64,000 nucleotides of DNA, taken from Candidatus Blautia intestinigallinarum. GTDB lineage: Bacteria > Bacillota > Clostridia > Lachnospirales > Lachnospiraceae. The notes under the pieces are model-generated. The model saw only the letters and a list, made by a program, of their open reading frames with translations, was not told the origin of the DNA and made no database searches. Below, piece after piece: positions 3,632 to 10,413 of this stretch (the stretch's first letter is position 1; the number at the start of each line of letters is the position of its first letter). The stretch spans positions 124,001 to 188,000 of the forward strand of contig DXIX01000017.1 in the NCBI GenBank assembly GCA_019112635.1, in the 5' to 3' direction. The translations under genes were made by a program, and so were the position numbers.

Positions 3632-4732
3632 TTATGAATTTAAAATTTCTCGGAAAGCAGCAAGCAGACGGTCGTTCTGTTCCGGGAGCATGATGCAGAA
3701 ACGGAAGTAGGACTCATCCAGGAACGGGAAGGTGGAACAGTTGCGGATCATCATTTTCTGGCGGATACAATGTTCAAAAAGCTTCTGGGCATCCATGCCA
3801 GGCTGCAGAATTTTAGCCAGAAGAAAGTTGCTGCATCCCGGATAGACTTTCAGTGATTTCCAGGAAGAAAGTTCTAAAAAGAGACGCTCTCTTTCTTCAT
3901 GAATCAGCGCCTTCGTCTTTTGGATATACTCCTGGTCACGGAACATAAAATGTCCGGCAAGTTCTGCCAGGCTGTTCACTGACCAGGGATCTTTTTTCTG
4001 GTTGATTTTCTGGAGAAGATCCAGATTTCCTGTGATGGCATAACCCAGGCGCAGCCCCGAGCAGGCGAAGAACTTTGAAGTGCCGCGCAGGATGATCAGA
4101 TTCGTGTAATAGGTAGTGAGAGGAGCCGCAAAGATCTGCTGGGGCTCCGGGGCGAATTCCACATAAGTCTCATCTACCATGACGAAGATTCCATATTGAA
4201 GGCAGGCATCCAGAATTTTACGCATCTGCTTTTGAGTGATGGCTGTCGAGGTGGGATTGTTGGGATTGCAGAGAACCAGAAGATCCAGGTCATCGTGGAG
4301 CTGAGCGCACAGCTCTTCTGTGTCGATTTGAAAATCGCGGTCTTCACGCAGCGGGTAGTACAGACTGGTACCGCCGCACAGAGCGATATCCCGTTCATAT
4401 TCTGAGTAGGTGGGACCGAGAATCAAAGCTTTCTTCGGAGAGAGTGTTTGGATAAAATGGGAAATCAGCTCGGTAGAGCCATTCCCCACCAGAACATGAT
4501 CCGCCTGTGTGTCTGTGTACCGGGCAATTTCCTGGCGAAGCCGGGTGTATTCACGATCCGGATATCCGGTGATCACATCCAGGTGTGAGGCCAGGTGGGC
4601 TCTCAGATTCGGGGAGAGTCCCAGAGGATTGACATTGGCACTGTAGCTGGTGATCTCCTCTTTTCGGATGCCATAGACTTGCTCTATTTTTTCTAAATCA
4701 CTTCCGTGAAAATGGTCTTTGTGTGTTAACAT
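3632..4732 (-). CDS. PLP aminotransferase, CobD/HisC-like (fold type I)
   Basis: The 366-residue enzyme belongs to the class I/II aminotransferases. The opening HGSDLEKIEQVYG...SANVNPLG resembles L-threonine-O-3-phosphate decarboxylase (CobD) more than histidinol-phosphate aminotransferase. Key residues visible are the NPNNP motif (156-160), VDETYVEF (from 186) and the PLP lysine in RGTSKFF (K220), followed by the phosphate-binding GLRLGY. No cobalamin or histidine genes lie nearby, so the substrate is open. It is divergent from the DUF5717 operon, with the two promoters about 70 bases apart. Confidence 0.82.
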   Translation of the reverse strand: MLTHKDHFHGSDLEKIEQVYGIRKEEITSYSANVNPLGLSPNLRAHLASHLDVITGYPDREYTRLRQEIARYTDTQADHVLVGNGSTELISHFIQTLSPKKALILGPTYSEYERDIALCGGTSLYYPLREDRDFQIDTEELCAQLHDDLDLLVLCNPNNPTSTAITQKQMRKILDACLQYGIFVMVDETYVEFAPEPQQIFAAPLTTYYTNLIILRGTSKFFACSGLRLGYAITGNLDLLQKINQKKDPWSVNSLAELAGHFMFRDQEYIQKTKALIHEERERLFLELSSWKSLKVYPGCSNFLLAKILQPGMDAQKLFEHCIRQKMMIRNCSTFPFLDESYFRFCIMLPEQNDRLLAAFREILNS

Positions 4733-4752: not shown

Positions 4753-4781
4753 TTGCACAGCTTTCGTTTGTAGTGTATAAT
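4753..4781 (+). promoter_or_regulatory. Promoter of the DUF5717-DUF5716-TPR operon
   Basis: TTGCAC (4753-4758), 17 bases, TATAAT (4776-4781), about 50 bases before the first gene. A vegetative sigma-A type site, so the operon is probably expressed in growing cells. Confidence 0.75.
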
Positions 4782-4784
4782 TCG

Positions 4785-4812
4785 ATTATAGTGTTTCGAA
4801 AAAAATAGTCAA
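4785..4812 (-). promoter_or_regulatory. Promoter of the CobD/HisC-like gene
   Basis: On the minus strand TTGACT and TATAAT are spaced by 16 bases. It lies back to back with the promoter at 4753-4781, so the two polymerase sites almost overlap. Confidence 0.75.
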
Positions 4813-4831
4813 GAACAATAGAGGTTAAACT

Positions 4832-7800
4832 TTGAAAAGAAGAGTAGAACAAATGATAAACGGAAAATTTGAATATAAGGTGCCCAAACTGCTCCTGTCG
4901 GTGGATAAAATTCAGGTAAAGACTCTGTGTGGAAAGAACTGCCAGAGGGAGATTTATCTGGGAACAGAGGAAAACCAGAAGGTTCAGGGCTATGTCAGCT
5001 CTTCTCACCGCCGTCTGATTCCGGAAGTATCTCAGTTTTCCGGGACAACGGTCAGAATTTCGTGTGGAATTGATGTGGAAGGTATGAACCCGGGAGAGAG
5101 TTTTCAGGGAAATCTGTGTTTCCTGACTAATTTCGGGGAATACCAGGTTCCGTTTTATGTTGAAATAGAAAAAGTTCCTGTGACAAGTACCAGCGGTCAG
5201 ATTGCATCCCTGGAGGCATTTGCCCAGCTGGCGAGAAAAGACTTCAGAGAAGCTTTTCGGCTGTTTACTTCAGATGGCTTTCGTTCGATTATGCAGGGAG
5301 CGCCCAGGAAGGAGAGGGCTCTTTATCTTGGAATGACTCATAATCCGGTAACTTATCAGCATTTGGAGGAGTTTCTGATCGGTGCAGGGCAGAAAGAACC
5401 GGTGCAGATCACATGGAAGGAGGATCAGGCCTCCTTTTATCAGGTGAAGGAATCCAGAAGTGAATCCTTTCAGATTCAGAGAAGCGGCTGGGGATTTCTT
5501 CGTCTGGAAGTGGAGACCAGGGGAGATTTTCTAAGTGTCTCCAAACATGTGATCCGGGAGGAAGATTTCATCGGGAGTATCTATCAGGTTGACTATGTGA
5601 TTCATGAGTCGTATCTGGGAAAAGGGAAAAATTTCGGAGAAATTCTGGTTAAGAGTCCTTACAGGACGTTCGTCTACCAGGTGATGGCTTCCAGAAATCA
5701 GGAGATTCAGGTCAATGTGGCTGTACTGGAAAAGAAAAAGAAAGTCGAGCTGGCGAAAGGTCTTCTGGATTTGAAGACAAAGAAGACGGATTACCGTCAG
5801 TGGGCAGAAAATACCAGGCAGATACTCCGGGAATTAAAGGAAGCTGGCTGTGACTATCCGGAATATCAGATGTGCGAGGCATTTCTTCACTATCAGGATG
5901 AGGAGACGGCGCAGGCACAGGCGATTTTGCGAAAATATGAGAATAAATCGTTTACGAGAAAGGACCTGGAGTTTGCGGGAATTTATCTGTACTTAAGCAA
6001 GATGACAGGTCTGATTGGCGCGAAGAAGAACATTTCTTCCAAAATCCGCAGTTTTTATAATCAGAAACCGGACAGTTTTCTGTTGCTCTGGACGCTGCTG
6101 CAGACAGATGAGGAAATCAAAAGATCTCCGTCAAAGGCGCTGTTCATGTTGGAAGAGCAGTATGACAGAGGGTGCCGGAATCCGTTTTTATATCTTGAGG
6201 CCTGGCAGATGGTGACAGAAGATATTTCTCTCCTTCGCCGGCTTAGTGGATTTTGGGTGCAGGTATTTTTGTTTGCGGGAAAACGAAGTCTTCTGACGGA
6301 GGAACTTTCCATGCGTCTGGCTTACCTGTCTGGTTATGAAAAAAGGTTTTCCAGAAGTCTTTACATGGCCCTGTGCAAGGCTTATGAGCAGTTCCCTTCA
6401 GATGATACGCTGGAGGCAGTCTGCAAACATATTATGAAAGGAAATCCCAGAAAGAGAGAGTTCTTCCCCTGGTTTTCCCTGGCGGTGGAACATGGACTTC
6501 GTCTGACTCGTCTGTATGAATACTATGCGGAGACTATGGACTGTTCTTATCAGAGAGAACTTCCGAGAACTCTGAAAATGTATTTTTCCTATAATAATAC
6601 CCTGGGAAGCCAGAAGCGGGCATATATCTATGCCAACATTGTTCAGAACAAAGAGAAAGATGTTCTGGATTATGAAAATTATGAAAAGATCATCCGTTCT
6701 TTTGGAAAAGAAAAAATTATTGAGGGAAAGATTAACGAAGATTACGCGGCAATTTATCAGGAATTTCTCTCAAATCCTGCGAGCGAGCAGGAGGCAGAGA
6801 ACCTGGCGCAGCAGATTTTTACCTGCCGTCTGTACTGTGATGATCCGAAAGTTCGAAATGTGATTGTGCGGCATAGCCAGTTTAAGACAGAAGATGTCTA
6901 TCCCTGTACAGAAGGGGTGGCTTACCCGAAAATCTATACCAAGGATGCGGTGATTCTCTTTGAAGATGACAGACAGAGAAGATATGCGAAGACGGTGGAA
7001 TATAACCTGACCAGGCTGATGGATGAAAAGGAACTGGTGAAAAAGTGCAGAGCTTATCCGGTGAAGGTGCCGGGATTTTTGCTCCATGTGGCAGAGCATG
7101 AGAACGTGGACCGGGAGAATCTGAACATTTATCAGCAGCTTTTGGATTCCCCGGCGTTTACAGAAGAATATAAGGTGCAGCTGCGCCGCAAAATGCTGGA
7201 ATACTATTCTGAACATGCCCAGGGAGAAGATCTGGATGATTACCTGGGACAGGTGGATCTTCCCAAGTTTGCAAGTGTGGACAAAAAGACACTGATGGAG
7301 ATCATGATTGCCAGGGGTATGTTTACGAGAGCCTACGAGGTACTGTGCAGTTACGGATACGAAGGAATCCAACTGGAAAGTCTGGTAAAACTATGCAGCC
7401 GGATGATTCAGCTGCGGGATATGGAAGAGGAAGATGAGTTGACTTCTCTGGCCTCCTATGTCTTTGAGCAGGGAAAATATGATGAGGTGATTCTCACATA
7501 TCTGATCTATTATTTTATGGGACCGTTGGATGAATTTTTGAAGCTTTGGACATGCGCGCGGGATTTTCAGGCGGATACGTATGAACTGGATGAGAAGATT
7601 CTCCAGCTTCTGATGTTGGTGTGGGATTACCGGACCCAAGGGGCACAAGTGCTGCAGGATTACATTTCGCAGCGGGGAAAAGAAAGGTTGATTCTTGCGT
7701 ATCTGAATTTCTGTGCCTATGGATATTTCATGAAGGGAAAGGCACTGGATCCATTTTTGGCGGAATGCTTCTACACCGCTTACCGCCGGGGATGGAATCT

Positions 7801-8365
7801 GGATATGGTCTGCATGCTGAGTCTGTTTCAGCTCTATGCGCATAAGGAGGACAGAACAGATGAGGAAGAAGCAATGCTGAGAGATTTGCTGAAACTGTGT
7901 GCGGAACACCAGTACCGTTTTCAATTCTTTGAACAGCTTCCGAAATCCATGAGAAGCCCTTATCAGCTGGATGATAAGGTGTTTGCGGAATGCAGGACAG
8001 ATAAAGATGCAAAAGTAACTCTGTACTATGCCCTGGATCAGGGACTGGACAGACCTTTGAAATATAAAAGTGAACCGATCAAAGCAGGATATGAAGGAGT
8101 TTTCGTGAAAACCTTCACTCTGTTTTACGGGGAAGTTCTTCACTACTATTTCGGGATCGAGACCGAGGAGGGATTGCGAAACACGGAGGAGAGAACGCTG
8201 ACTGTGCAGAATGTGGAATCTGACGGGCAGAGTAAATATCAGCTTCTGAACCAGATGCTGGCTGCCAGGGTGCAGGGAAGAAGAGATGAGGCAGCTGATA
8301 AGATGAGGAAATATCTGCAGCAGGAAGATTTTGTGAAGAAAATGTACCAGATAGAGAAGGAATAG
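4832..8365 (+). CDS. Very large DUF5717-type protein, putative helical-repeat scaffold
   Basis: The 1177-residue soluble protein has no signal peptide or membrane segment. Residues ~1-110 look like a beta-sandwich (alternating strands around KVPKLLLSVDKI and GEYQVPFYVEIE), a second beta-rich stretch lies at ~180-300, and ~315-1010 is almost all helical with TPR-like pairs rich in Tyr, Leu and Glu. The last 170 residues are again partly beta. I recognise the general family as DUF5717 of Lachnospiraceae; no function is known. The TTG start at 4832 has AGAGG eight bases upstream; ATG at 4853 is an alternative. The next gene begins four bases after the stop, so translation is probably coupled. 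Its size and repeat content suggest a scaffold or client-binding partner for the Hsp70-like protein that follows. Confidence 0.75.
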   Translation: MKRRVEQMINGKFEYKVPKLLLSVDKIQVKTLCGKNCQREIYLGTEENQKVQGYVSSSHRRLIPEVSQFSGTTVRISCGIDVEGMNPGESFQGNLCFLTNFGEYQVPFYVEIEKVPVTSTSGQIASLEAFAQLARKDFREAFRLFTSDGFRSIMQGAPRKERALYLGMTHNPVTYQHLEEFLIGAGQKEPVQITWKEDQASFYQVKESRSESFQIQRSGWGFLRLEVETRGDFLSVSKHVIREEDFIGSIYQVDYVIHESYLGKGKNFGEILVKSPYRTFVYQVMASRNQEIQVNVAVLEKKKKVELAKGLLDLKTKKTDYRQWAENTRQILRELKEAGCDYPEYQMCEAFLHYQDEETAQAQAILRKYENKSFTRKDLEFAGIYLYLSKMTGLIGAKKNISSKIRSFYNQKPDSFLLLWTLLQTDEEIKRSPSKALFMLEEQYDRGCRNPFLYLEAWQMVTEDISLLRRLSGFWVQVFLFAGKRSLLTEELSMRLAYLSGYEKRFSRSLYMALCKAYEQFPSDDTLEAVCKHIMKGNPRKREFFPWFSLAVEHGLRLTRLYEYYAETMDCSYQRELPRTLKMYFSYNNTLGSQKRAYIYANIVQNKEKDVLDYENYEKIIRSFGKEKIIEGKINEDYAAIYQEFLSNPASEQEAENLAQQIFTCRLYCDDPKVRNVIVRHSQFKTEDVYPCTEGVAYPKIYTKDAVILFEDDRQRRYAKTVEYNLTRLMDEKELVKKCRAYPVKVPGFLLHVAEHENVDRENLNIYQQLLDSPAFTEEYKVQLRRKMLEYYSEHAQGEDLDDYLGQVDLPKFASVDKKTLMEIMIARGMFTRAYEVLCSYGYEGIQLESLVKLCSRMIQLRDMEEEDELTSLASYVFEQGKYDEVILTYLIYYFMGPLDEFLKLWTCARDFQADTYELDEKILQLLMLVWDYRTQGAQVLQDYISQRGKERLILAYLNFCAYGYFMKGKALDPFLAECFYTAYRRGWNLDMVCMLSLFQLYAHKEDRTDEEEAMLRDLLKLCAEHQYRFQFFEQLPKSMRSPYQLDDKVFAECRTDKDAKVTLYYALDQGLDRPLKYKSEPIKAGYEGVFVKTFTLFYGEVLHYYFGIETEEGLRNTEERTLTVQNVESDGQSKYQLLNQMLAARVQGRRDEAADKMRKYLQQEDFVKKMYQIEKE

Positions 8366-8369
8366 AAGT

Positions 8370-9620
8370 ATGAATGAGATCAGAGACATCTTGATTGGTA
8401 TTGATTTAGGTGAGAAAGTTTCTCAGATTTGTTATTATGACCGACGGCGTCAGGAACCTGTGGAGGTCACCATGAAGGTGGGCTCCGCCTGCTACGAGAG
8501 TCCCAGCTGTGTGTGCTGGAGAGAAAAGAGTCAGGAATGGAGCATGGGGTTGGAGGCGGAATACTTTGCCAGGGAACAGGGCGGGATTCTGGTGGAAAAT
8601 TTTTATCATCTGTGCGAGGAGGATCTGAAGATTTCGGTTGGCGGGCAGATGAGAGAACCCTGGGAGCTGGCTGCCGCTTACATTCAGGGGATGATTCATT
8701 TTCTCGGGAGCCGGGAGCCGGTGAAAAATACAAAATGTCTGGCGGTGACTGTTCCGAACTTGAATGGAAATATGGTAAAAAATCTTCAGAAAGCCTGTGA
8801 GAGCATCGGATACTCCAAAGATCAGCTTCTGCTTGCGGATTACTCAGAGAGTTTTTATTACTATGCGTATTGTCAGAGGCTGGACTTTCGTACCCGGAAT
8901 ATCGGTTGGTATGCATTTGATGAAAATCAGGTGACTTTTCGCAGGCTGTATGCCAGTGCCGGCGGGAAACTGACTTTTGTCAGACTCAGTGATCCGGTCC
9001 ATGCGGAGCTGGGAGAGTCTGCAGAGGATAAAGACTTTGATTTCTGTCAGTTTCTGATTAACACGCTGGGCAATGATCTGTATTCCAGTATCTATATTAC
9101 TGGCCATGGATTCGACCAGGAATGGGCGAAGACGAAGTCCATCCCCATACTGTGCAGGCAGAAGAGAAAGGTTTTCGAGGGAAATAATCTGTTCGTAAAA
9201 GGAGCATGCTATGCTGCCAAAGAACAGTTGGAAGATAAAAAACTAAAAGGATTTCTTTACCTGGGAGATGCTCTGGTAAAGACCAACGTGGGAATGGAAA
9301 TGCAGGTGATGGGGACACCGGCTTATTATGCGCTGATTGAGGCAGGAAAAAACTGGTATGACTGTCAGTCTGACTGTGAGATTCTGTTAGACGGCCGGGA
9401 GGACCTTACCTTTTTGGTTGCCCGCATGGACGAAACTTCCTCTCAGAAAGTAAAGATGAAATTGCCGGGGCTGCCAAAACGTCCCAACAAGACCACCAGA
9501 CTGCATCTGCACCTGGAGTATACAGCGGCCGGGGTCTGCCAGATCCGGGTGGAGGATCTGGGCTTCGGGGAGTTCTATCCGTCCAGCAGAAAGGTCTGGA
9601 CAGAGACAGCCCATTGGTAA
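8370..9620 (+). CDS. DUF5716-type protein with a diverged Hsp70/actin-like fold
   Basis: The 416-residue protein lines up along its length with Hsp70 landmarks. LIGIDLG (8-14) matches the phosphate-1 loop; AVTVPN (125-130) with ADYSESFYYYA (156-166) matches the connect/ITVPAYF...NEPTAAA region; IYITGHGFD (241-249) with GNNLFVKGACYAA (271-283) matches the adenosine motif; and 355-412 (KLPGLPKRPN..., then CQIRVEDLGFGEF) matches the beta substrate-binding domain. The helical lid is absent. The phosphate-2 loop is degenerate (about 178-186, with D184 but no GGGT), so ATP hydrolysis may be weak or lost. The family name DUF5716 is from memory. It sits between a giant helical protein and a TPR-like protein, as expected for a dedicated chaperone set. 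Confidence 0.75.
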   Translation: MNEIRDILIGIDLGEKVSQICYYDRRRQEPVEVTMKVGSACYESPSCVCWREKSQEWSMGLEAEYFAREQGGILVENFYHLCEEDLKISVGGQMREPWELAAAYIQGMIHFLGSREPVKNTKCLAVTVPNLNGNMVKNLQKACESIGYSKDQLLLADYSESFYYYAYCQRLDFRTRNIGWYAFDENQVTFRRLYASAGGKLTFVRLSDPVHAELGESAEDKDFDFCQFLINTLGNDLYSSIYITGHGFDQEWAKTKSIPILCRQKRKVFEGNNLFVKGACYAAKEQLEDKKLKGFLYLGDALVKTNVGMEMQVMGTPAYYALIEAGKNWYDCQSDCEILLDGREDLTFLVARMDETSSQKVKMKLPGLPKRPNKTTRLHLHLEYTAAGVCQIRVEDLGFGEFYPSSRKVWTETAHW

Positions 9621-9633
9621 AGGAGGAGTCAGG

Positions 9634-10413
9634 TTGAGCGGTTATATTTTATGCCAGGTAAAGAAAGCCGGCAAACCTTATTTTATAGAAAATGTCAGCG
9701 TCAATATTTACACGATTGAAGAACTATGCTTCTATCTGTGCAATAATCTGTATCTGATTGACCACACAATACGGAATGAAGAGTTGTCCCGCTGGCTGGA
9801 GGAAGAGCTGGGGCTGCGTGCGCTGGCGGCGAAGACGCGTTCCCATCTGAAGGCGACGGACTCTCTGGGGGAATTTCTCTATCCGATCCTGAAAGAAATT
9901 AACTATCTGGATTACGAAGAACTCAGGGCTTTGAATAACCGCCTGACTCAGATGGCGGAGGAGTCCTCGGAAGTCAGAAAGAAGAAAAGAGCGGACTGTC
10001 TCGTGGCAAATGGTATGTATGTGGATGCCATTCAGAGCTACCAGGAAATTCTGAAAAACGAAGAGCGTCTGAAACCGGCATTTGCAGCCGGAATTTATCA
10101 CAACCTGGGATGTGCGTTCAGTTATCTGTTCCAGAAGGAAGAAGCAGTGGAGTGTTTCTGGAAAGCTTACGGGAAAGTTCATACGGAGAGTACGCTTCGT
10201 ATATATCTCGTCGCCTACAGCGACTGTAAAGGAATGGAGGCTTATGAGAAAAGAATGGAAGAGTTGGGCGTGGATCCTTCCACCGCCGAGCGGATTACGG
10301 AAGAGATCCGCAGGGCGAGGCGAGAGTCCGAGAAGAAATCCTTTTCTGTGCAGGATATGGATGTGATTCTGGAACGGATGACTGCGGAATACCATCGCAG
10401 TACATCTGCGTGA
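9634..10413 (+). CDS. TPR-like third protein of the DUF5717/DUF5716 operon
   Basis: The 259-residue protein is of no family I can name. Residues 1-110 are mixed, with a TIEELCFYLC helix. Two TPR-like helical pairs follow at ~119-147 (ADCLVANGMYVDAIQSYQEI) and ~152-183 (YHNLGCAFSYLFQKEEAVEC). The C-terminal ~60 residues are charged helix. The start is TTG, chosen because AAGGAGGAG lies six bases upstream. It is 13 bases after the DUF5716 stop and ends the operon. TPR proteins are common Hsp70 co-factors, which fits the neighbour, but this role is inference. Confidence 0.7.
   Translation: MSGYILCQVKKAGKPYFIENVSVNIYTIEELCFYLCNNLYLIDHTIRNEELSRWLEEELGLRALAAKTRSHLKATDSLGEFLYPILKEINYLDYEELRALNNRLTQMAEESSEVRKKKRADCLVANGMYVDAIQSYQEILKNEERLKPAFAAGIYHNLGCAFSYLFQKEEAVECFWKAYGKVHTESTLRIYLVAYSDCKGMEAYEKRMEELGVDPSTAERITEEIRRARRESEKKSFSVQDMDVILERMTAEYHRSTSA

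Follow-up and report, generated by a model that had tools for sequence, protein, structure and literature searches.

A three-gene operon of Lachnospiraceae encodes a predicted pseudo-Hsp70 and may represent an Hsp70-derived complex reduced to an ATPase-free core

The window analyzed here, a stretch of 64,000 nucleotides from the genome of Candidatus Blautia intestinigallinarum (GCA_019112635.1, contig DXIX01000017.1, positions 124,001 to 188,000), carries an operon of three genes that encode a DUF5717 protein, a DUF5716 protein and a protein related to tetratricopeptide repeat (TPR) proteins. The DUF5716 protein is predicted to be a degenerate, lidless Hsp70 that groups within one branch of the Hsp70s encoded by a larger locus in other families of the order. 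Because DUF5716 is degenerate, the loci of sister families hold intact Hsp70s together with GrpE, and DUF5716 nests within their Hsp70b group, we read the operon as what remains of an Hsp70-derived complex, a core kept without the ATPases, a reading to which we give somewhat better than even confidence. By itself, the operon is probably no ATP-driven machine, and its most likely role is that of an ATP-independent assembly or holding complex.

Structure of the DUF5716 protein

A preliminary description of this DNA, made from the letters alone, had pointed out Hsp70 landmarks in the DUF5716 protein, the absence of a lid and a C-terminal segment resembling the β-type substrate-binding domain (SBD-β) of Hsp70. 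A search of the PDB sequences with the single protein returned nothing at E≤1, and the window's protein showed no match to the Hsp70 family PF00012 at the same threshold. A profile of 62 DUF5716 sequences matched seven PDB sequences, one of which is an unrelated kinetochore chain, and the top match was Geobacillus DnaK with a whole-sequence E-value of 0.0095. The profile aligns colinearly to DnaK, with residues 8~153 on the nucleotide-binding domain (NBD) and residues 351~397 on SBD-β, the latter including the PGLPKRPN..EDLG segment singled out earlier. The two pieces are weak separately (E-values of 1.3 and 87, respectively), and since the profile evidence is weak on its own, the Hsp70 identity was decided by the fold.

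The AlphaFold model, predicted from the same 62-sequence alignment, has a predicted local distance difference test (pLDDT) score of 94.0 and a predicted template modelling (pTM) score of 0.90, and consists of an actin-like NBD joined to SBD-β. A Foldseek search of this model against the PDB yielded 1303 matches in all, the best of which is DnaK (E-value of 1.1e-19). Hsp70-family names appear in 47 of the 50 listed titles, and the remaining three titles belong to one entry of the ribosome-associated complex (RAC) and to two entries of the ciliary C1, the chains of which we take to be Hsp70s. Alignments over both domains have template modelling (TM) scores of at most 0.62 by query length, with root-mean-square deviations of 9.5~23 Å, and the domain arrangement differs. 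A filament protein of the MreB or actin type was ruled out, as none is among the 50 listed of the 1303 matches. In the model, the sandwich has eight strands and the chain stops after the last of them, so DUF5716 lacks the α-helical lid. Altogether, the landmarks described earlier proved to be above chance, and the computed fold indicates that DUF5716 is an Hsp70 derivative with an NBD-like fold and a lidless SBD-β-like sandwich.

Degeneration of the nucleotide-binding site

Residues of the nucleotide site were counted in one alignment of the genome's DnaK, four Hsp70 groups of the larger locus (18 sequences of Hsp70a, 16 each of Hsp70b and Hsp70c, and 14 of Hsp70d) and 109 Lachnospiraceae DUF5716 sequences, 105 of them distinct, which include the window's copy (L001). 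One group b row (L126 6-1232) is a truncated Hsp70c and was excluded from the census, the spacing comparison and the tree. The residues T11, T12, K70, D194, G196, G197, T199 and D201 are kept in every Hsp70a, Hsp70c and Hsp70d. Among the 109 DUF5716 sequences, T11 and K70 are retained in none, D201 in one, G196 in two, T199 in seven, T12 in 10, G197 in 23 and D194 in 28. The window's copy keeps none of these eight residues, and it is among the 92 sequences that have none of T11, T12, K70, T199 and D201. The order-level Hsp70b is already without K70, T12, T199 and D201 in all 16 rows, and keeps T11 in five and D194 in 15 of them.

The span from the phosphate-2 motif to the adenosine motif has a median of 63 residues in DUF5716 (60~78, n=109). 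DnaK has 143 residues in this span, and the medians of Hsp70a, Hsp70b, Hsp70c and Hsp70d are 180, 140, 146 and 153, respectively (range 133~181 outside DUF5716). Judged by this spacing, DUF5716 is without about 80 residues, which are those of lobe IIB. Exchange factors rotate lobe IIB and thereby open the cleft, according to PMC10825016. The DUF5717 protein, which the preliminary description had offered as a possible exchange factor, is unlikely to be one, because DUF5716 has no lobe IIB left to move. Computation on the aligned sequences thus characterizes DUF5716 as a pseudo-Hsp70, in which most of the hydrolysis and phosphate residues and the lobe addressed by exchange factors are lost. Of the chaperone or assembly machine suggested earlier, the chaperone origin stands; an ATP-driven part is not supported, as nearly all relatives are without K70, the threonines of phosphate 1, the greater part of phosphate loop 2 and lobe IIB.

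The larger Hsp70 locus and the origin of DUF5716

Across the remaining families of the order, 72 of 174 genomes matched PF18984, the N-terminal DUF5717 family, and we picked 21 of these matching genomes for inspection. In 18 of the 21, one or more DUF5717 genes adjoin the gene for Hsp70a and a GrpE-type gene; where DUF5717 is split, its N-terminal part has ~395 aa and its C-terminal part ~900 aa. Hsp70a (~559 aa) is canonical, and the one member scanned matched PF00012 at 3.1e-75. Two members of the GrpE-type cluster were scanned, and each carries at its C-terminus a GrpE domain that scores over the cut-off (PF01025, 4.7e-9 and 5.4e-12). Hsp70b (~500 aa) occurs in 16 of the 21 stretches, and the one scanned matched both PF18980, the DUF5716_C family (1.7e-23), and PF00012 (5e-20). 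Hsp70c (~545 aa; PF00012, 1.4e-53) is likewise present in 16, and Hsp70d (~691 aa) in 14; the latter joins an Hsp70 to a VWA domain (PF00012, 1.5e-96; PF00092, 3.8e-9). A TPR gene (~390 aa) was found in 13 and the coiled-coil gene g4 in five, all these counts being limited by the reach of the stretches read. The motif-intact Hsp70s and the GrpE-domain gene of these sister families make the link to chaperones stronger than could be known from the window alone.

Several features of these loci are recorded here as observations. The fusion of Hsp70 to a C-terminal VWA domain is an unusual architecture (L152:6116-8188 and L144:15549-17723). Six order loci have a long coiled-coil protein with membrane-like N-terminal stretches upstream of DUF5717_N (L132:9831-11150, L136:9453-10577), and the one scanned had no Pfam match over the cut-off. 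In L142, L143 and L163 (genomes G678, G606 and G592, respectively), no Hsp70 gene accompanies the DUF5717 halves within the stretch read, and in at least two of these genomes the halves are separated by other genes; judged by eye, there are flagellar-looking genes nearby in G606. In two genomes of one family, genes that by eye resemble CRISPR-Cas genes stand just past the cluster (L146:1532-10840, L152:10532-18640).

The descent of DUF5716 was traced with a FastTree phylogeny of 94 sequences rooted on DnaK, which holds 28 of the 109 Lachnospiraceae DUF5716 rows plus the window's. Groups a, c and d each form a clade of their own, with supports of 1.0, 0.991 and 1.0, respectively. The 29 DUF5716 tips are monophyletic (0.975) and nested in group b; the clade of b and DUF5716 has a support of 0.982, and group c joins next with 1.0. 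DUF5716 has as its sister the b copy of genome G499 (0.999); this genome retains Hsp70a, the GrpE-type gene and Hsp70c, with Hsp70d split into two open reading frames (ORFs). In the locus of this closest outgroup (L150:12708-15884), the Hsp70-VWA and TPR genes are each two ORFs, by sequencing frameshifts or early decay. The tree computed from these sequences indicates that DUF5716 arose from a single one of the four Hsp70 paralogues in the larger locus, and the simplest reading is that Hsp70a, GrpE, Hsp70c and Hsp70d were lost in the lineage of the Lachnospiraceae.

Nine further loci, eight from the same family and one (G653) from another, show the order DUF5717-DUF5716-TPR, the last two being fused in L171; a contig-end piece of G098 was excluded. 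None of the nine matched the profiles of Hsp70a, Hsp70d or the GrpE-type gene, and the Hsp70c profile matched only three of the DUF5716 ORFs. Exactly two PF00012 stretches were counted in nine of 60 family genomes, the window's own included, and these nine genomes therefore leave no room for the lost paralogues.

Distribution and conservation of the operon

Two hundred genomes, called Lachnospiraceae by inference from the named loci, were searched with profiles of the three genes. PF18984 (DUF5717) was matched in 196, PF18980 (DUF5716) in 195 and the TPR profile (E≤0.001) in 195; G029, which matches the TPR profile only at 4.7e-4, was counted as a miss for co-occurrence. All three genes are present in 193 genomes and none in two (G029 and G091), with five mixed. 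Four of the mixed genomes (G020, G199, G128 and G146) are 67-70% complete; the fifth, G098, is the one that was inspected, and it was rejected as a true exception since its DUF5717 gene stops at a contig edge. In the survey suggested earlier, co-occurrence is thus near-strict, and neither of the two outcomes named in advance as refuting the idea came about: the genes are not found independently of one another, and the middle protein does have the Hsp70 fold. Among the 195 genomes positive for PF18980, 193 have one match each, while G129 and G137 have two; the two of G129 lie on two contigs of a genome with 6% contamination. Outside the family, PF18980 was found in none of the 295 other genomes of the phylum sample; a single genome of the window's order stood among those listed. 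In the class sample of 291 genomes, PF18984 was matched in 10 same-family genomes, own included, and by one sub-cutoff hit elsewhere. The TPR profile was matched in 95 of 196 genomes of the order sample, 19 of them weakly (E above 1e-8).

The closest relatives of the window's locus that were named are from Blautia and other Lachnospiraceae. Of 401 relatives that were confirmed, the analysis covers the 80 best, so the named loci are biased toward near relatives. Clusters of the three genes have members from 78, 77 and 77 of 80 sets (79 named loci plus the window). Set A3 comprises 61 of the 79 loci plus the window, and set A6 39 of 54 listed loci (themselves a subset) plus the window; L020 yielded no motif, L019 was excluded from set A1, and the partial L097 from the cluster comparisons. 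The gene order is constant in the 20 layouts viewed, except in L103, where the ORF caller picked no TPR gene. Moreover, DUF5716 and the TPR protein form a single ORF in three genomes (G043, 690 aa; G067, 713 aa; G126, 718 aa), which strongly indicates that the two proteins function together as one unit. A plasmid-borne module was rejected, as a search of plasmids, though not of phages, gave no match for DUF5716 and most genomes have one PF18980 match.

Eleven pairs entered the comparison of nonsynonymous and synonymous rates (dN and dS), one of which gave no values and one of which was saturated. The operon has a dN/dS of 0.030~0.059 in two pairs with a dS of 0.25~0.49 and of 0.15~0.21 in a near-identical pair, while most other pairs have a dS near or above 1.

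Scaffold, TPR protein and proposed assembly

The AlphaFold model of DUF5717 (pLDDT 87.5) has β regions at residues 20~112 and 193~287, an α-solenoid at residues 296~659 and 732~1044 with a β insert, and a β domain at residues 1049~1124 that is followed by a helical tail. In the PDB, Foldseek matched this model to entries that contain Ig-like domains (ciliary, SPD-2, titin) and to solenoids of the TPR and HAT types (Ctr9, Ski, NatA), with TM scores by query length of no more than 0.19. The two outer proteins had been described as helical repeats, which fits the TPR partner and the solenoid of DUF5717; for DUF5717 this description is incomplete, as its model has β domains at both ends as well. 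On the modelled architecture, we propose that DUF5717 is a platform or scaffold. The TPR protein has the conserved N-terminal motif ILC..K.A..PY.IE...N.YSIEELC. The gene g4 encodes a coiled-coil protein of ~395 aa with two apparent membrane segments (hydrophobic stretches read by eye). It lies directly 3' of the TPR gene in 12 named loci (e.g. L113:12133-13314), and its profile matched 89 of the 200 family genomes. The Blautia-type layouts that were viewed do not show it, and a profile search did not find it in the window's genome (2.1 Mb, estimated completeness 75.5%).

In the complex that we envisage, DUF5717 would be the platform on which DUF5716 and the TPR protein, fused in three genomes, may sit as one unit. 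The SBD-β-like domain would hold a fixed partner or an extended segment of a client without an ATP cycle, by analogy to Ssz1, a non-turning-over Hsp70 within the yeast RAC. Where present, g4 would tie the complex to the membrane, and any ATP-driven step that is needed would have to come from the housekeeping DnaK.

Gene organization and neighborhood

The three ORFs, announced earlier at the positions given in Table 1, were borne out by the ORF list and Pfam. They are separated by 4 bases (DUF5717/DUF5716) and 13 bases (DUF5716/TPR), and a Shine-Dalgarno sequence, AAAGGAGG, precedes the TTG start of the TPR gene. None of the three proteins matched NCBIfam above the cut-off. A scan of the genome contigs with a single protein gave 63 pattern matches, of which none was confirmed. 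The single sigma-A promoter assigned to the operon could not be upheld: it matches 10 of 12 positions, and since the scan found 11 sites compared to 8.2 (standard deviation 2.9) in shuffled sequences, such a match is no evidence. The cluster of the aminotransferase-like neighbor includes 26 of the 80 Lachnospiraceae sets, window included, with a profile match also in L174, and similar genes (by eye) stand at the DUF5717 end in 11 of the first 20 order-level loci; on account of this recurrence, the locus is counted as syntenic.

Table 1. Features of the operon and its surroundings (positions in the window)
Feature	Position	Strand	Description
DUF5717 gene	4832-8365	+	1177 aa; Pfam DUF5717_N (PF18984) 8.6e-258 and DUF5717 (PF18983) 1.6e-91
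DUF5716 gene	8370-9620	+	416 aa; Pfam DUF5716_C (PF18980), residues 124-416, 2.5e-96; predicted lidless pseudo-Hsp70
TPR gene	9634-10413	+	259 aa, TTG start; Pfam TPR matches all sub-cutoff (best TPR_1 7.1e-6)
DUF5716 NBD-like part	8370-9281	+	residues 1-304; 63 residues from phosphate-2 to adenosine motif (DnaK 143), lobe IIB missing; by model and motif spacing
DUF5716 SBD-β-like part	9282-9617	+	residues 305-416; eight-stranded sandwich, lid absent; by profile, model and fold search
Aminotransferase-like divergent neighbor (pyridoxal phosphate type)	3632-4732	-	labelled by eye; outside the system, marks synteny
Promoter-like TGCACA-16-TATAAT	4754-4781	+	pattern scan; not above chance

Alternative explanations

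Several observations weigh against an ATPase-free core left by reduction. An equivalent of E171, a residue that serves Mg/catalysis and the interdomain signal in Hsp70, is present at the same 22-residue spacing in the window's copy and in 102 of the 109 DUF5716 sequences; a loss of this residue was ruled out by the spacing check. D8 is D in 81 and G10 is G in 78 of the 109, and all 109 have the first adenosine-loop glycine. DUF5716 may therefore still bind nucleotide. The loss of the paralogues here, as opposed to a gain elsewhere, is a parsimony argument from a tree rooted on an outgroup, and many other Lachnospiraceae have further, unclassified Hsp70s. The 21 order genomes were not a random choice, and three of them (G592, G606 and G678) have the DUF5717 pair only, without adjoining Hsp70s. 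The pTM of the scaffold model is only 0.60. In addition, the control gene purB evolves more slowly (dN/dS 0.011~0.034 over eight pairs), so the operon is constrained, yet not like a central enzyme.

The retained residues bear above all on a nucleotide-sensing switch, an option raised in the preliminary description, in which DUF5716 would bind nucleotide without hydrolysis and alter the engagement of scaffold and partner. The E171 equivalent, the conserved D8 and the invariant glycine would suit such a switch; however, both phosphate loops are degenerate, the phosphate residues and lobe IIB are lost in nearly all relatives, and without lobe IIB a bound nucleotide would be poorly enclosed, so we consider it quite improbable. 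It is very improbable that the operon encodes an active dedicated chaperone machine, with DUF5716 hydrolyzing ATP, the TPR protein as co-chaperone and DUF5717 as client or exchange factor. Even with an Hsp70 fold, SBD-β and a larger locus of motif-intact Hsp70s and a GrpE-domain gene in its favor, such a machine would have to work with K70 and T11 in 0/109 and D201 in 1/109 copies and without lobe IIB; nor was a J-domain matched among the proteins scanned (not every ORF), or a GrpE-type gene found by profile in the nine further loci or seen in the 20 layouts. Alternatively, the operon may descend from the GAP1-N2/HSP70-GrpE conflict neighborhoods of Kaur et al. 2020, either domesticated or still in defense. 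The parts shared in Firmicutes are Hsp70, GrpE, extra Hsp70s, a protein of β domains and TPR-type solenoid, and VWA. A motif scan for ORFs (≥90 aa) with Walker A and NKxD, run without a GAP1 profile, found none in the core spans of the order loci and three candidates anywhere in them; the genes are near-universal rather than patchy in the family, have a conserved neighbor gene and, for DUF5716, no plasmid match, which makes this descent improbable. An assembly factor that acts at the ribosome, membrane or envelope and serves a single fixed partner complex, with DUF5716 as a purely structural pseudo-Hsp70 and not a client holdase, is an unlikely explanation that nevertheless deserves some weight. 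It agrees with the fixed gene set, the DUF5716-TPR fusions and the two-membrane-segment coiled-coil g4 adjoining in many lineages, but g4 occurs in only 89/200 genomes and was not found in the window's incomplete genome, and the genomic context names no target.

We therefore retain the ATPase-free, Hsp70-derived core. The wider proposition, to which we grant a chance just short of even, is that this is a family-wide core Hsp70 machine without ATPases, in which a cluster of four paralogues plus GrpE was cut to a non-hydrolyzing paralogue, a scaffold and a TPR protein in nearly every genus sampled. If so, the important output of the ancestral machine would be an assembled complex rather than the ATP cycle, and the catalytic Hsp70s would be loaders, dispensable or replaceable by DnaK. 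The three are core genes of a dominant gut family, and their function is not described in the literature searched; as the preliminary description had supposed, neither DUF5716 nor DUF5717 is described in what this search covered (mostly open-access papers, no preprints). The predicted pseudo-Hsp70 identity and the motif-intact sisters in related families offer a first functional handle, and the loci provide a natural before and after for what an Hsp70 system does once its ATPase is removed.

Relation to known chaperone systems

The window's proteins are members of the Pfam families DUF5716 and DUF5717, which have no assigned function. With DnaK and other Hsp70s (PF00012), DUF5716 has in common an NBD-like fold followed by an eight-stranded SBD-β, and the tree joins them by common descent via Hsp70b and Hsp70c; compared to DnaK, it is without the lid, K70, T11, D201 and lobe IIB, and most of the phosphate-2 loop is lost.

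The nearest parts list in the literature searched is that of the GAP1-N2 systems, with HSP70, GrpE, a second HSP70 and an FNIII-TPR/DnaJ protein. In Kaur et al. 2020 (PMC7159879), about 14% of the GAP1-N2 GTPase neighborhoods contain HSP70 and GrpE, a subset has a second HSP70, the FNIII protein is typically fused to DnaJ or TPR, and Firmicutes are among the hosts. The DUF5717 model combines β domains with a solenoid, and DUF5717 may be a counterpart of that FNIII protein. The systems described there are centred on a GTPase and GAP1, whereas the genes described here are family-wide core genes. As the motif scan gave no GTPase candidate in the core spans, we do not file the operon under the GAP1-N2 systems; the Hsp70-GrpE module may have an origin in common with theirs.

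For the proposed complex, the nearest functional likeness is Ssz1, an atypical Hsp70 in a fixed complex. Ssz1 carries out no hydrolysis and has no lid. A RAC/Ssz1 entry ranks 43 among the Foldseek matches of DUF5716, and Ssz1 is called an atypical Hsp70 in PMC8476630. The partners proposed for DUF5716 differ from those of Ssz1 in being a TPR protein and a giant scaffold, with no J-domain match in the proteins scanned. DUF5716 is, moreover, bacterial and without lobe IIB, and the tree suggests that it was separately derived from the Hsp70s of the cluster.

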